64,000 bases of DNA from Effusibacillus pohliae DSM 22757. GTDB lineage: Bacteria; Bacillota; Bacilli; Tumebacillales; Effusibacillaceae. Position 1 is the stretch's first letter. Every line of letters begins with the position of its first letter. The translations under genes were made by a program, and so were the position numbers. The notes beneath the pieces are model-generated. The model made no database searches, was not told the DNA's origin, and saw only the letters and a list, made by a program, of their open reading frames with translations. Shown piece after piece: positions 19,157-60,724 of this stretch. The stretch lies in contig NZ_AQXL01000124.1 of NCBI RefSeq assembly GCF_000376225.1, positions 1 to 64,000 on the forward strand. Direction: 5' to 3'.

Positions 19157-19228
19157 ACGATCAAACATCAGTAGAGGAAACTCGGCTAAAAGCGCCCGCG
19201 TCCGTGCGGGCAACACCGAGTTGATCGT
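19157..19228 (+). promoter_or_regulatory. Structured leader with nested and competing hairpins before the binding-protein gene
   Basis: acgatcaa (19157-19164) can pair with ttgatcgt (19221-19228). aactcgg (19179-19185) can pair with ccgagtt (19216-19222), and gcccgc (19194-19199) with gcgggc (19206-19211). The two outer pairings share bases and so compete. There is no T-run. The Shine-Dalgarno for the binding-protein gene follows closely. Confidence 0.45.
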
Positions 19229-19255
19229 CCGTGATCAAAAAAGGAGGTCAATCGA

Positions 19256-25117: not shown

Positions 25118-26209
<1,092 letters not shown>

Positions 26210-26282
26210 CCGTAGGGCAAAACCAAATTCTCAGATTGGTTTCTGAGAAAGTGATTGTGACGATTCGCTCAAAGAGCCGATT

Positions 26283-26325
26283 AGGAAGAATCCGCTCGGG
26301 TGACGGGGTTCTTCCTTTTTTTTTT
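26283..26325 (+). terminator. Strong intrinsic terminator after the sugar locus
   Basis: aggaagaa...ttcttcct stem, with additional inner cc/gg pairs, followed by ten T residues (26316-26325). Confidence 0.88.
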
Positions 26326-26339
26326 GTACGAACGTACAA
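26324..26339. promoter_or_regulatory. Perfect 7-bp palindrome directly after the terminator
   Basis: ttgtacg (26324-26330) and cgtacaa (26333-26339) are exact complements with a 2-base centre. It may be a regulator site for the AT-rich island; function unknown. Confidence 0.35.
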
Positions 26340-26622
26340 GAAGAACATATCTTTGAGCCGATTAAAGTCCGAGCCTAACTCTCTTGTAAACGGTGATTGC
26401 ATTGTTGAATCGTCGGTGTTGAAGGAACGATAGGTCTTTGAAATCGCAAACGGTCGGAAGGGAGTATGGAGAATCACTCGAATATTTGAGTTGCACAAAT
26501 TGCTCGGAAACACCTAAATCTTGTCAAGGTTGGCGAACCGCCTAATGCTGTATGCTAGGTGAGAGGCTGGGAATTAGCAGTCACTCTTACTAGATAAGTG
26601 TATTTTTCGATGAGTTTTATAG

Positions 26623-26651
26623 TTGACAGATAGCTTTGGTAATTATAATAT
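26623..26651 (+). promoter_or_regulatory. Sigma-A-type promoter for the AT-rich island
   Basis: TTGACA at 26623-26628, 17-base spacer, TAATAT at 26646-26651; a TATAAT two bases upstream of the -10 call is an alternative. It gives about a 190-base leader before the secreted-protein gene. Confidence 0.65.
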
Positions 26652-26730
26652 AATAGACATAAAGATAAATTCTGATTCCGAAATAGGGAGATAATAAAAA
26701 AGAAAAACATTCTTTTACTGTGGAAGAAGC

Positions 26731-26772
26731 ATGTCAGTTTACGGGAGGTGTTTGTGTAAACAAAAAAAGTAG
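26731..26772 (+). CDS. Candidate 13-residue leader peptide
   Basis: An ATG with ggaagaagc just upstream opens a 13-codon frame (MSVYGRCLCKQKK). tttac inside it pairs with gtaaa about 13 bases later. It is too short to judge by codon use; a translated leader or a chance frame are both possible. Confidence 0.2.
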   Translation: MSVYGRCLCKQKK

Positions 26773-26847
26773 CTGTGGATTTGGCGAAAGAGTTTGAATC
26801 GTTTGTCTTCAGCTAGTTCAAAAATCTTTTTAAAGGAGGAATCGGTT

Positions 26848-27249
26848 ATGTCTGTTAGGATGAAGCTGTCCAAAATTACGATTTTGACTGCGTTGGTTTT
26901 TGGACTGTTGATGTCGGTTGGAGCAGTGTTGGCCTATAATGGTCCGTACCAATACGATGCCATTGTTCCTAGCTTCGGGACCCCGAATTGGTATAGCGAG
27001 CCGCAAACAGCATCGGGGAGTGCTCAGAAAAGCTATGTATCTTCTATTGGTGGAGGGTATGATGGGGATATCAATGGATGGATCTCCAATGATAACGGCA
27101 GTGCCATCTCTTCCTCCTATGATTTGTATTCCGGAAAAACGTATTACTACAACACTAGTGCAACTTCAGGCTCGAAGGTTGAATGGTCTATGGACACGCA
27201 TTTTTGGGTACCAGTTAATGTTGAAGTAAAAGGTTCGTGGTGGTCCTAA
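26848..27249 (+). CDS. Small secreted protein of unknown function, island gene 1
   Basis: A 133-residue protein; the ATG at 26848 with aaaggagga 8 nt upstream gives MSVRMKLS and a signal peptide ending near AVLA (about residue 30). The mature 100 residues are rich in Tyr, Ser, Gly and Trp (YNGPYQYDAIVPSFG, SYVSSIGGGYDGD, GKTYYYNTSATSGSK, VEVKGSWWS). No Cys is seen in the mature part, and no lanthipeptide-like core or double-glycine leader. It is immediately upstream of four ABC transporter genes and a big hairpin. It vaguely recalls small secreted DUF2712-type proteins found next to ABC-2 transporters, but that is not established. Substrate, bacteriocin-like or sensing roles are all open. Confidence 0.8.
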   Translation: MSVRMKLSKITILTALVFGLLMSVGAVLAYNGPYQYDAIVPSFGTPNWYSEPQTASGSAQKSYVSSIGGGYDGDINGWISNDNGSAISSSYDLYSGKTYYYNTSATSGSKVEWSMDTHFWVPVNVEVKGSWWS

Positions 27250-27252
27250 GAA

Positions 27253-27305
27253 TTTCAAGTACGGCACTCTGGCACTATGTGCAGTCTGGGGTGCCGTACT
27301 TGAAA
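27253..27305 (+). terminator. Perfect 15-bp hairpin between the secreted-protein gene and the ABC genes
   Basis: tttcaagtacggcac (27253-27267) pairs perfectly with gtgccgtacttgaaa (27291-27305); the 23-base loop itself holds gcac/gtgc. The AT-rich stretch after it is only moderately T-rich. It is likely a partial terminator or mRNA stabiliser that favours the secreted-protein message. Confidence 0.7.
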
Positions 27306-27365
27306 AAGCATAATTTTTCTTAATTCTAGTAAATTTATTAAAAATCAGAATGGGTGAAGGCTCAG

Positions 27366-28214
27366 ATGATTTTTGCAGAAGGATATCGATTGGTGCGTCG
27401 CTGGCAAGTACTTTTGGCGATGATCGCTTTGATTGGTTTTATGGTGCAAGGATTTTTCTATTATCATAGTAAACCGACTTATTTTTCAGGTTATTATAGT
27501 GCGTATATGGCTTACATTTCTGCATTAGGAACCGGTAGTGGTGCTTTTTGGATTGCGGTTTTACCGTTGATAGCATGTCTTGTGGCAGGTGATAGTGTGG
27601 CATGGGACCGAAGAACCGGATTCATTCGTTTTATGCTCATACGGTTATCAAGAAAGGAATACATATTGAATAAACTTCTGTCCACCAGTCTTTTTATCGT
27701 TTTGTTTTTTGCTGTTGGACTTGTTATTTCTTTCTTAATTGTATCGATTTGGCTTCCATTAAAACTACCACCTTGGCATTTCGTTAATGGAATTGCGACT
27801 TTTTCTCTACCGGGAGTCCCGGAAGATGAAGTTTTTTTATTTCCAACTTTTATGCATAATTTGTTTTTTAAGCACCCTTTTGCTTATATTGTTGTGGTTT
27901 CTGGCATCGTGATCCTGTCAGCCGTGGCTTGGACCAATATTGCCATTTTGGTGTCTTTATTTACGACCAATATCTATCTCGTATTGGGTGTACCTTGGTT
28001 GATATATATTATTGTGTCTTTTATCATGATGATTCCCTTGGTTGGGTTGCCTCACTACTCTCCTTTGGTCCTGTCAGGACCATTCATGGAAAGTGGTCCG
28101 GGTACGGGGCCTTCGGCACCGTGGATTCCGATTTTCTGGATTATATTGATTCTGTTATTGAACATGGCTGCCTATATGATTTTTCTTCGTAAGGGGGAGA
28201 AAATCCTTGACTAG
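27366..28214 (+). CDS. ABC-2-type membrane permease, island gene 2
   Basis: A 282-residue protein with six or so hydrophobic helices. ATG 27366 is chosen because gaagg lies 6 nt upstream; the GTG four codons earlier has none. It has the layout of ABC-2/BcrB-type permeases: an N-terminal helix, a long extracytoplasmic loop (YYHSKPTYFSGYYSAYMAY), then paired helices. It overlaps the ATPase gene. It forms part of an exporter or immunity-type transporter with the genes at 28207, 28927 and 29757. Base composition is AT-rich relative to flanking genes. Confidence 0.85.
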   Translation: MIFAEGYRLVRRWQVLLAMIALIGFMVQGFFYYHSKPTYFSGYYSAYMAYISALGTGSGAFWIAVLPLIACLVAGDSVAWDRRTGFIRFMLIRLSRKEYILNKLLSTSLFIVLFFAVGLVISFLIVSIWLPLKLPPWHFVNGIATFSLPGVPEDEVFLFPTFMHNLFFKHPFAYIVVVSGIVILSAVAWTNIAILVSLFTTNIYLVLGVPWLIYIIVSFIMMIPLVGLPHYSPLVLSGPFMESGPGTGPSAPWIPIFWIILILLLNMAAYMIFLRKGEKILD

Positions 28215-28872
28215 TTTTTCTGCTCATGCAATTCAGGCTACGGGAATAGAGAAGAGACTCGGTAAAATTGAAATTCTAAAAGGAGTTGATTTTAGTATTT
28301 CGTATGGTGAGATTGTCTCGATTGTTGGAGCGAATGGTTCCGGAAAATCGTTGTTCCTTCGCATATTAGCGGGACTTGTTTATCCGGACAAAGGAAATAT
28401 TACGATTGGTGGAAAACCGTTGCGTCCGGGATTAATCGGTCCTCTTGCTGATGTGGGGTTATTAATTGAGACACCTGGTTTCCTTCCTTATCTTTCCGGA
28501 TTGGACAATTTAAAATTGCTTGCCATGCTCCGACGGCGGATCAAAGAACAAGACATAGTAGATACTTTGAGGGCAGTTGGACTAGATCCCGCCGATGTTC
28601 GCCCAGTACGTACCTATTCTTTGGGAATGAGACAACGTTTGGGTATCGCCCAAGCGCTAATGGAAGGACAAAAAATCCTTTTGCTTGATGAACCAACCAA
28701 TGCGTTGGATCCTGAATTTCACGATAAATTTTTGGAGATGCTGACTGAATTGCGATCGAATGGAGTTGCAATCGTTATGACATCTCATAATTTACAAGAG
28801 GTTGAGAGACTTGCGGACAAAGTCCTCCTTATGAAGAATGGCGTACTCACCGAATGGAGCATAACCACATAA
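28207..28872 (+). CDS. ABC transporter ATP-binding protein, island gene 3
   Basis: A 221-residue ATPase. The TTG start at 28207 overlaps the previous stop by 8 bases and has gggggag 8 nt upstream. Walker A is GANGSGKS, the signature YSLGMRQRLGIAQ, Walker B ILLLDEP, then the D-loop NALDPE and the switch His in TSHN. Small ATPases of this kind (BcrA/CcmA-like) power ABC-2 exporters, for example of lantibiotics or in bacitracin-type resistance. It probably serves three different permeases in this operon. Confidence 0.95.
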   Translation: MTSFSAHAIQATGIEKRLGKIEILKGVDFSISYGEIVSIVGANGSGKSLFLRILAGLVYPDKGNITIGGKPLRPGLIGPLADVGLLIETPGFLPYLSGLDNLKLLAMLRRRIKEQDIVDTLRAVGLDPADVRPVRTYSLGMRQRLGIAQALMEGQKILLLDEPTNALDPEFHDKFLEMLTELRSNGVAIVMTSHNLQEVERLADKVLLMKNGVLTEWSITT

Positions 28873-28926
28873 AGCGCAATTATCTAACTTAGATTGTTTG
28901 GCTCAACGTGAGGAGGGACTGGTTCA

Positions 28927-29739
28927 TTGTTTTGGCGGATACTTTGGATGAACTTGTTAACGATTTTAAGCAACGCACGCTGGCGTTTGGTACCGCTTTT
29001 TGCCATCGCAATCTGTGGGATCTCTATTTCCGATATTCTAAAATACGGGGAATTGTATGCGGCGAATCAATGGGATATTCTGCTAGAAACTTTCAATGAT
29101 CCTTTCAAGGTTGCTGTGCTTATCCCTGCTTTCTTCTTCACTATGATTGTTGATACAGTTACAAGAGACCTGAATGGATGGGGTTATATGATTTGGAATC
29201 GGGGGATGTCAAGAGCTCAATGGTGGTGGAGTAAGTTGGGGGCCCTTTTTGTGACTGCGTTCATTTACGTCAGCATCTTTTGGATACTAGCGATCATGAT
29301 TAGCTTGTTCGTTGTTCAGTTTCAACCATATTGGAGCAAACTTGTTTTTTTGTCACATTGGGCTTATCAAGGCGGTCTAACCATTCACCAGTTACAAGTC
29401 CCCCCGCCCATCATCTTTCTTAAGGTATGGGGATTAGTCACGGTTGGAATTTATGCTCTTGCTGCTTGCGTGGTTTTGTTCGCTTTTGTTCTGGGGAATG
29501 CCGGCATCGCATGGATGATCGGGGCAGCAACCTGTATGATTTCATATGGGATATGGGTTATTGCCCCACAGAATGCTGTATGGGGGCCCACCTTGCATTT
29601 GGTACTCTTAACTCATCATGACATTTTTTCCAAATCCCCTTCTTACTATACGACAGTTTTTTCTGTTATCGGGGGATTGCTTATTATCGCTGCTGTTGGT
29701 TGTATTGGACACTGGATGGTTTTAAGAAGGGATTTTTAG
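28927..29739 (+). CDS. ABC-2-type membrane permease, island gene 4
   Basis: A 270-residue protein with about six hydrophobic helices. The TTG at 28927 is preferred since aggaggg ends 9 nt upstream; the first ATG is codon 8. The first helix reads LLTILSNARWRL, followed by an extracytoplasmic loop (ILKYGELYAANQWDILLETF), then paired helices and a conserved-looking DTVTRDLNGWGYMIWNRGMSR. It is similar in size to the neighbours but not obviously a duplicate. Probably a second permease subunit of the same transporter. Confidence 0.8.
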   Translation: MFWRILWMNLLTILSNARWRLVPLFAIAICGISISDILKYGELYAANQWDILLETFNDPFKVAVLIPAFFFTMIVDTVTRDLNGWGYMIWNRGMSRAQWWWSKLGALFVTAFIYVSIFWILAIMISLFVVQFQPYWSKLVFLSHWAYQGGLTIHQLQVPPPIIFLKVWGLVTVGIYALAACVVLFAFVLGNAGIAWMIGAATCMISYGIWVIAPQNAVWGPTLHLVLLTHHDIFSKSPSYYTTVFSVIGGLLIIAAVGCIGHWMVLRRDF

Positions 29740-29756
29740 AATTGGGAGAGATTCGA

Positions 29757-30569
29757 TTGCGTATGGCGTGTTGGAAATTCCTTGCCATTGAATTTTTTTC
29801 TGGCCTATGGCGCAAGAGATGGGTTCTCATTTTTTTGTTGATGGGAGTCAATATATTTCTCACCGAAAAAAACTTTGTTTATCTATCTGACGACCATCAT
29901 ACTTCGTTAAATTACTGGCAATTGGCGCAAGCTGTTTTATCAGGGCCATCGCTTCACCCCCCAACTTATGAAATTTTGGGTTGGTTGTTCTTACCGACTC
30001 TTTTTATTTTGGGAATTGGAGAACCGTTTTCATTACTCCAGAGGCAGTGGATGAAAATGCTGTTATCTCGAATCCCATCAAGATTAAATTACTGGTGGTG
30101 CAGATTAGTAGCTTGGTTTGTTTTGGGATTTTTGTTTGCCGCTTTTGTAGTGCTCGTAAGCCTGCTACTAAGCGGACTGATCACCTCATCCCATGATTGG
30201 GGAATTCCCCCAATCCTTATTTTAAACGGAAAGGGCCAGCCTTTTTCAATTGTTTTTTTGTGGCTTTTCGTTAACTTTCTAATGACAATATGGTGGTATA
30301 CAACAATTCTTTTTACATGCTCGGCCTTATTTTCTCGACCCGGGATAGCCACCATCGTGACCTTGTACACCGGTTACATTTTAACTTATTTAGGAACCCA
30401 CTATCAATCATTTTCACCGTATTTGCGTCCTTTGTTGGGAGGCGAACAGAACGCTTTTCTATATCCTATTCTCGTAAAGTCTTCTTTTCTGAGTGTCGCT
30501 ATCAGCTCTTTTGGCTGGTTTCTATTGAATATTCTCGGTTACGTTATTTTTCATCGCAAAGATTTGTGA
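29757..30569 (+). CDS. ABC-2-type membrane permease, island gene 5
   Basis: A 270-residue polytopic protein. The TTG at 29757 has gggagag 6 nt upstream; the ATG two codons later is an alternative. Hydrophobic helices begin WVLIFLLMGVNIFL, with later pairs near WWCRLVAWFVLGFLFAAFVV and the C-terminus. Residues RIPSRLNYWWCRL lie at the position where ABC-2 permeases have the conserved Arg-rich cytoplasmic stretch. It is the third permease of the island and may have no close relatives outside such clusters; the small DUF2705-like resemblance is weak. Confidence 0.75.
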   Translation: MRMACWKFLAIEFFSGLWRKRWVLIFLLMGVNIFLTEKNFVYLSDDHHTSLNYWQLAQAVLSGPSLHPPTYEILGWLFLPTLFILGIGEPFSLLQRQWMKMLLSRIPSRLNYWWCRLVAWFVLGFLFAAFVVLVSLLLSGLITSSHDWGIPPILILNGKGQPFSIVFLWLFVNFLMTIWWYTTILFTCSALFSRPGIATIVTLYTGYILTYLGTHYQSFSPYLRPLLGGEQNAFLYPILVKSSFLSVAISSFGWFLLNILGYVIFHRKDL

Positions 30570-30636
30570 TCAAAAACCCACATTGTTTAGCGAGGAAGCG
30601 ATAATAAGAATGGGTATTCTTTGTTTTCAACCAGAC

Positions 30637-30664
30637 GGGCCTTCCACGGAAGGCGCTTTTTTCA
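30637..30664 (+). terminator. Intrinsic terminator after the ABC-2 island
   Basis: gccttcc and ggaaggc form a short stem with TTTTTT following at about 30657-30662. Likely end of the island operon. Confidence 0.7.
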
Positions 30665-39950: not shown

Positions 39951-40040
39951 CAATCATCAAGGGCAAACCTGTCGAAAGGCAGGGACGCAAAGCTATGGGT
40001 CTAACGCCTTTGCAGGCTATGACCGCCAGGCTGCTGATTG
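39951..40040 (+). ncRNA. Cyclic di-GMP-I (GEMM) riboswitch aptamer
   Basis: The conserved core is present: gggcaaacc, a GAAA tetraloop hairpin (cctgtcgaaaggcagg), gacgcaaagc, ggtc/gacc pairing in the second stem, and closing stem caatca (39951-39956) with tgattg (40035-40040). Immediately after it, gattg (40036-40040) could pair with caatc (40057-40061) instead, a plausible switch. It lies upstream of the PAP2, glycosyltransferase and UDP-glucose dehydrogenase genes, so c-di-GMP should control them. Confidence 0.92.
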
Positions 40041-59856: not shown

Positions 59857-59891
59857 CCCCGGATCGTTTGAGCAGTCAATCCGGGGTTTTT
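59857..59891 (+). terminator. Intrinsic terminator of the pit-phoPR operon
   Basis: ccccgga (59857-59863) pairs with tccgggg (59880-59886), followed by TTTTT. Confidence 0.85.
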
Positions 59892-60282
59892 ATAGTTCCT
59901 CACAATGTTCTTCGATGATCGATACAATTTGTGAGAAACTGTACACACGATTCACAACATCGACCGTAAAATCTTCTGCTAATCTCGGTTCCATGACAAA
60001 CTCATACCCGTTATAATTTAGAAACTGGAGCAACGCGAGGAACGCGGTTCGCTTGTTGGCATTGTGAAATGGATGGTTCTGGGCCAACGATTCAAACAAT
60101 GCAGTTGCTTTCTCGAAAATTGTTTTATATGCATCTTCACCAAAAATGGATTGTTTTGGCCGATTGATCGCTGAGTCAAGCAGTGCAGGGGATTTCACGC
60201 TTTTTTGTTCGCCGGGGGAAGTGTTTTCGATTACATAGATGTTGATTGCGACAACCTCTTGCCAGGTCAAGTAGACAACCAT
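59890..60282 (-). CDS. Doc/Fic-family toxin (death-on-curing type)
   Basis: A 130-residue protein. The ATG at 60282 overlaps the antitoxin stop (TAATG). The Fic/Doc core is HPFHNANKRTAFLALLQFL (about residues 70-88). In Doc the motif is HxFxDANKR; here the acidic residue is Asn, as in several death-on-curing relatives. Doc phosphorylates EF-Tu; whether this version is active is not known. Second gene of a toxin-antitoxin pair. Confidence 0.88.
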   Translation of the reverse strand: MVVYLTWQEVVAINIYVIENTSPGEQKSVKSPALLDSAINRPKQSIFGEDAYKTIFEKATALFESLAQNHPFHNANKRTAFLALLQFLNYNGYEFVMEPRLAEDFTVDVVNRVYSFSQIVSIIEEHCEEL

Positions 60283-60530
60283 TATCGATTTTTAAGACCT
60301 TCGATGGTTTCGCGATATTTCTTCATGTTTTTGTCGAGGGTCGCAAAAAACTCGGGGTTGAATCCTTCCGGCACTTCCACACGCGGTTTCATCTTGCGGA
60401 TCACAATTTCACCCGCTTCCGGCCGTACTACCACGTCCACTTCATCGCCTAATCCCAACCCGATTTGTTTCAAAGCATCCGTCAAGGACACTCCCAAGCT
60501 GCTGCCGAAACGGGTTACTTTACGATTCAT
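60282..60530 (-). CDS. AbrB/MazE-like antitoxin
   Basis: An 82-residue protein. The ATG at 60530 was chosen because ggag is 8 nt upstream; the frame starts 6 codons earlier. Swapped-hairpin AbrB domain: RKVTRFGSSLGVSLTDALKQ and VDVVVRPEAGEIVIRK. C-terminal tail EGFNPEFFATLDKNMKKYRE likely contacts the toxin. Gene order antitoxin then toxin, with overlap, is standard type II. Confidence 0.88.
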   Translation of the reverse strand: MNRKVTRFGSSLGVSLTDALKQIGLGLGDEVDVVVRPEAGEIVIRKMKPRVEVPEGFNPEFFATLDKNMKKYRETIEGLKNR

Positions 60531-60724
60531 TGTCATTGCTCCATTCATCTGTATTTTTCTTCTATCCTCCCCTATACGGTAATGTTGTTATACGTATTAT
60601 AATCATTATATTATACTGAAAGCAAGGAGGGAAGTGAAAAATTTCTGACGATAGAAAATGGGTGATTGCCCTCCGATTTGCTATAATAGGCTACAAATGG
60701 AATTTGCGAAGGAGGTCCCTTTTG

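Follow-up and report, generated by a model that had tools for sequence, protein, structure and literature searches.

The DNA analysed here, a 64,000-nucleotide stretch of the Effusibacillus pohliae DSM 22757 genome that we refer to as the window, contains an AT-rich insert lying between an oxidoreductase gene (end at 26209) and a gene of the polysaccharide-flippase type (start at ~30730). Between 26.3 and 30.6 kb the G+C fraction over 4 kb is 0.412, whereas 4-kb windows in the rest of the stretch have a mean of 0.555 (sd 0.015, minimum 0.515); third-position G+C falls as well, from 0.68–0.79 in the flanking genes to 0.36–0.48 in the insert. A sharp AT-rich block between two GC-richer loci had been proposed in an original prediction made from the letters alone, and total and third-position composition both bear it out, although the limits given then, 26210 and 30600, have to be moved to ~26330 and ~30570. 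The oxidoreductase gene is followed by an intrinsic terminator on the forward strand (26284–26325; GGAAGAA...TTCTTCC and a T run, as read in the sequence), and the boundary between native and inserted DNA lies just 3′ of it, from where G+C drops. On the far side, a sequence scan located a terminator-like hairpin with a T run 3′ of the cassette (30639–30660, forward strand).

In order, and all on the forward strand, the insert contains a gene for a 133-residue putative secreted protein (hereafter SP), a hairpin, and the genes for permease 1, an ABC ATPase, permease 2 and permease 3. The SP gene runs from an ATG at 26848 to a stop codon ending at 27249 and is preceded at 26832–26839 by a strong Shine-Dalgarno sequence, AAAGGAGG. 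Its first 29 residues (26848–26934) have the pattern of a Sec-type signal peptide with predicted cleavage at ...VGAVLA/YNGP, and the mature protein of 104 residues (26935–27246), delineated with family alignments, is rich in Gly, Ser, Tyr and Trp, lacks Cys, and has neither a lipobox nor a transmembrane anchor following the signal peptide. Members of the family are ~125–145 residues long and share the motifs VP..F..G and, at the C-terminus, V.V.G.W. The original prediction had described a Tyr/Ser/Gly/Trp-rich signal-peptide protein of this length that matched no named family, and it was right on both counts: profile searches of Pfam, NCBIfam, PHROGs, PADLOC and PDB gave no family match that would place the mature protein in a well-known family, and no toxin domain was recognised in the family libraries. 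AlphaFold predictions of SP, made from two sequences only, had pLDDT values of 46 and 39, too poor for a fold search or for comparison with the beta-sandwich of the lactococcin 972 family.

Permease 1 (27354–28214, GTG start) has homologues in the permeases 1 of the remaining locus types. The ATPase gene (28207–28872, TTG start; ABC_tran, 2.7e-29) overlaps it and is followed by permease 2 (28927–29739) and permease 3 (29742–30569), which both start at TTG and are homologous to each other by profile comparison. The order ABC-2 permease, ATPase, permease, permease had been called correctly; none of the window permeases matches an NCBIfam model or a Pfam family. Complete loci elsewhere carry the three permease units either as three genes or as one gene and a fusion of the other two, the fused permease of ~500 residues corresponding to permease 2 plus permease 3 (hhalign 96.3 and 88.9). 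Since the loci with two membrane genes contain this fusion, the three-permease make-up is general in the family, and this raises a question of structure, given the view that an ABC exporter requires two membrane domains. Residue comparison places a Glu codon of the ATPase (28468–28470, forward strand, within DVGLLIETP) at the Q-loop position, making it an E-loop. An acidic residue occupies this position in 59 of the 60 ATPases of the family (E in 40, D in 19, N in one), whereas 13 of 16 control ATPases, taken from the same stretches with three family members left out, have Gln. The E-loop is reportedly conserved in lantibiotic immunity ABC systems (Okuda 2010, as cited in PMC7038271).

The hairpin between SP and permease 1 (27253–27305, forward strand) has a perfect 15-bp stem with arms at 27253–27267 and 27291–27305, as originally described. 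None of 100 dinucleotide shuffles reached 15 bp, the longest shuffled stem being 9 bp. The feature recurs: within 130 bases 3′ of SP, 20 of 35 family loci have a perfect stem of 10 bp or more, and 24 of 35 have one beyond shuffle expectation (p<0.05), the span of 130 bases having been used since 80 bases missed the hairpins of one locus type. As the hairpin sequences are unrelated between loci, it is the position that is kept and not the sequence. Upstream of SP, a consensus scan found a promoter-like site (TTGACA-17-TAATAT, 26623–26651, forward strand, 10/12 matches), which carries little weight because the region contains no more of these sites than expected. In the window SP has a consensus ribosome-binding site and an ATG, and the transporter genes start at GTG or TTG, which suggests high SP output against low transporter output. 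The TTG starts noted earlier in several genes hold for the ATPase and permeases 2 and 3, and the odd starts of permease 1, the ATPase and permease 2 look real because the copy in Geobacillus thermocatenulatus uses the same codons (permease 1 GTG, ATPase TTG, permease 2 TTG, with ATG for permease 3).

That G. thermocatenulatus copy is the closest relative of the cassette (SP 73%, permease 1 75%, ATPase 74%, permease 2 68%, permease 3 53%). A search profile built from 12 SP members found SP in 22 of 399 Bacilli genomes, about one in twenty of the sampled Bacilli species, and in 18 of 145 genera; in the Geobacillus family it is present in 20 of 41 genomes, about half of the species sampled, with four divergent copies in G. 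thermocatenulatus. Five plasmids recovered in a plasmid search carry it, among them the small Priestia pHJT3_2 (9,971 bp) and Planococcus pPS15-2 (9,775 bp), which hold the cassette. Outside Bacilli, credible members occur in about ten Bacillota genomes, leaving out weak matches in the phylum that lie in very long frames and cover only the signal-peptide region (E around 1e-4); one such locus outside Bacilli (L239) has the gene order of the window at 64% G+C. Closer to home, SP occurs once in the E. pohliae genome, the first family profile found none in 13 other genomes of the order, and a very remote version is present in one genome of the same order (G171, locus L210). The downstream flippase-type gene is found in all four genomes of the genus, and what precedes it differs in each congener (an S-layer-like gene, a sugar ABC system and an amino-acid permease, named by eye), so the cassette sits in a variable spot. 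The horizontal acquisition put forward originally thus agrees with the composition shift, the lack of a match in 13 genomes of the order and the differing flank; the locus is not one shared at native composition by all close relatives. With its patchy distribution and its presence on small plasmids, the cassette is mobile. Phage origin or cargo was rejected as no relatives were present in phage records or viral contigs, and anti-phage defence was rejected because PADLOC matched generic ATPase models only.

Individual loci show variations on this layout. One G. thermocatenulatus locus has a transposase-like gene pair between SP and permease 1 (L021, 7199–8322) with the cassette genes intact, and on pPS15-2 the cassette ATPase is annotated as two pieces (L037, 725–1227), probably through a frameshift or sequencing error, next to an intact SP. 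In clostridia-like loci a protein of ~235 residues with a single TM and no Pfam match is added after the ATPase (L241, 8810–9517; L247, 1851–2555; L249, 9196–9945), which might be an accessory immunity protein. Two three-permease ABC sets lie in tandem in L203 (G045:C157, 5666–12763), the first behind a short SP-like ORF and the second, which has no SP, being of the window type.

Several lines of evidence indicate that SP and the ABC genes belong together. The module of SP, permeases 1, 2 and 3 (or their fused form) and an E-loop ATPase recurs as a family, and an ATPase of the same type adjoins SP in 58 of 67 loci, a figure that is not wholly unbiased because some loci were collected via their transporter; of the nine exceptions, eight abut the end of a contig and the ninth has decayed. 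The genes do not always follow the same order, the window type being SP-permease 1-ATPase-permease 2-permease 3 and most other loci having SP-permease 1-permease 2-permease 3-ATPase, and in some plasmids and genomes SP is divergently transcribed from the transporter. Distances between mature SPs correlate with those between their permeases 1 (Mantel r 0.78, p 0.0002, n=30; r 0.63 without close pairs). The neighbourhood survey and the joint evolution therefore sustain the earlier treatment of SP and the ABC set as one system. Selection acts unevenly on SP. Between the window and G. thermocatenulatus copies dN/dS is 0.096 for the mature protein, and across six pairs it is 0.06–0.10 for the mature protein versus 0.28–1.4 for the signal peptide. 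The mature domain is thus under strong purifying selection with relaxed selection confined to the signal peptide, and since the one is conserved while the other drifts, the secreted domain is the product that matters. Decay gives a further view. In seven Geobacillus-family loci the transporter is kept and SP is lost or broken (L117, L119, L120, L121, L199, L200 and L202, with L199 running into a contig end), and in two SP is intact and its own transporter broken (L105 and L113); the genomes of these two (G425 and G427) each hold an intact transporter of the same type (L117 and L199). A ratio of seven to two is in line with what one would expect of a toxin gene and its immunity gene, though the numbers are small.

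The most reasonable explanation, in which our confidence is slightly better than even, is that the locus is a mobile cassette for a Sec-secreted bacteriocin-like protein and an E-loop, three-permease ABC exporter for self-immunity, passed between species as a unit. SP would be produced abundantly, thanks to its own strong ribosome-binding site, and would leave by the general Sec route, shedding a signal peptide of 29 residues; the mature protein of 104 residues would then act outside the cell, as an unmodified bacteriocin-like molecule, on competing Gram-positive cells. The hairpin 3′ of SP may limit read-through or protect the SP mRNA, giving less transporter than toxin. Permeases 1–3 and the E-loop ATPase would form an ABC exporter in the producer membrane that removes mature SP or target-bound SP, providing self-immunity as LanFEG does for lantibiotics. 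Several points count against a bacteriocin: the conservation of mature SP also fits a non-toxic secreted factor, the pairing of a secreted protein with an ABC set can have other reasons, the asymmetry of loss is small, two genomes hold an intact SP beside a broken transporter, and the cassette contains no quorum-sensing or regulatory gene.

Known systems offer partial parallels. As in the lactococcin 972 family, the gene for a small protein, predicted to be Sec-secreted and unmodified, stands directly before genes for a membrane protein and an ABC ATPase, the layout of the ~10-kb Priestia and Planococcus plasmids resembles that of pBL1, the 10.9-kb plasmid of lactococcin 972, and a conserved core with a variable signal peptide is common to both families. 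Mediterrocin, which belongs to the lactococcin 972 family and comes from a gut bacterium of the Clostridium class, is a broad-spectrum bacteriocin that is unmodified and secreted through Sec; it has just such a core and signal peptide and is widely spread in Bacillota (PMC12345188), and by analogy it offers a close functional precedent for SP, though not proof. Membership in that family was nevertheless rejected, the likeness being one of layout only. PF09683 had no match in the 12 SP members up to E=1, with true members as controls at 55.5 and 53.6 bits, and hhalign of the SP profile (A1) against lactococcin 972 (A6, two sequences) aligned only 26 signal-peptide columns at probability 30. The DUF1430 partner, found in the pBL1 control, is absent from SP loci; where lactococcin 972 has a DUF1430/FtsX-like partner, SP has three ABC-2-like permeases without a Pfam match, and the lactococcin 972 ATPase has Gln in its Q-loop whereas those of the SP family are acidic.

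LanFEG transporters, which expel membrane-bound peptide into the medium (PMC7038271), resemble the present set in having one small acidic E-loop ATPase with ABC-2-like permeases of ~6 TM. They have two permeases, LanE and LanG, whereas the window system has three permease units, and the ATPase scores 160.8 bits against its closest NCBIfam model, the lantibiotic protection ABC model TIGR03740, well below the cut-off of 309.75. LanFEG membership was rejected on these grounds. No LanE or LanG model of NCBIfam matched the window permeases, and no lantibiotic precursor or modification enzyme was present among the genes around the cassette. A third comparison is with the YknWXYZ pump, whose YknZ subunit carries a MacB-like extracellular domain and whose YknX is an adaptor; that pump is not known to be linked to the gene of its toxin, SdpC, unlike the ABC set here, whose genes are linked to SP. 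In Bacillus, the toxin SdpC has its counterpart in YknWXYZ, an ABC pump of several components by which the producer is protected (PMC4887032), a pairing that the candidate toxin and candidate protective multi-component pump of the cassette would resemble.

The most probable of the other explanations, though we consider it unlikely, makes SP the extracytoplasmic partner of the exporter. Secreted for capture, for sensing or as a decoy, SP would bind a foreign antimicrobial or an envelope intermediate, which the exporter would remove, and the cassette would be a resistance system. The constant SP-ABC pairing, the co-evolution of SP with permease 1 and the strong selection on mature SP would all be expected of such a partner, and E-loop ATPases also fit resistance pumps. 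Yet SP has no lipobox or membrane anchor beyond its signal peptide, SP and the transporter can be divergently transcribed, and transporters persist without SP in several genomes, so that SP is dispensable for whatever those transporters do. Less probable still is that the cassette kills nothing and serves the producer population itself, at the cell surface, in signalling or in biofilms. That the family is widespread, keeps its mature domain conserved and shows no recognised toxin domain is compatible with this, but its distribution is very patchy, it occurs on small plasmids, one genome has several divergent copies and decay is frequent, all of which suits antagonism or addiction better. Least probable is that the ABC set exports or matures SP as in peptide-export loci: the genes are adjacent and bacteriocins are commonly exported by ABC sets, but the signal peptide of SP is of the Sec type and ends in an A-x-A-like cleavage site, neither a double-glycine leader nor a peptidase domain is present, and ATPase and permeases alike belong to the small ABC-2/LanF type. 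The authors of the mediterrocin study reason in the same way, regarding a dedicated exporter as unlikely for a protein with a Sec signal (PMC12345188). Because SP has a Sec-type secretion signal, the ABC set would protect rather than export, and of the export or immunity roles offered originally, immunity is favoured and export is not.

The bacteriocin reading can be carried further. We give a little less than an even chance to the proposition that SPs across Bacillota make up a class of Sec-secreted antibacterial proteins not described before, without relation to lactococcin 972 and equipped with their own three-permease E-loop immunity pump. The SPs form a secreted-protein family without an entry in the public family libraries searched and with a built-in candidate for self-immunity; if they are antibacterial, thermophiles and small soil plasmids would harbour many thermostable, unmodified protein antimicrobials that current mining misses. 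In a survey of 67 Geobacillus genomes, G. thermocatenulatus BGSC 93A1 is listed for lantibiotic and circular clusters only (PMC6160750).

Elsewhere in the window, a G+C dip (0.47) at 59890–60548 on the reverse strand coincides with a probable toxin-antitoxin pair, named by eye, in which an 88-residue AbrB-like protein precedes a 130-residue Doc/Fic-type protein with the motif HPFHNANKRTA. Two structured RNAs are also present, a c-di-GMP-I riboswitch at 39952–40038 (85.6 bits) and a Bacillaceae-1 RNA at 19170–19237 (40.2 bits).
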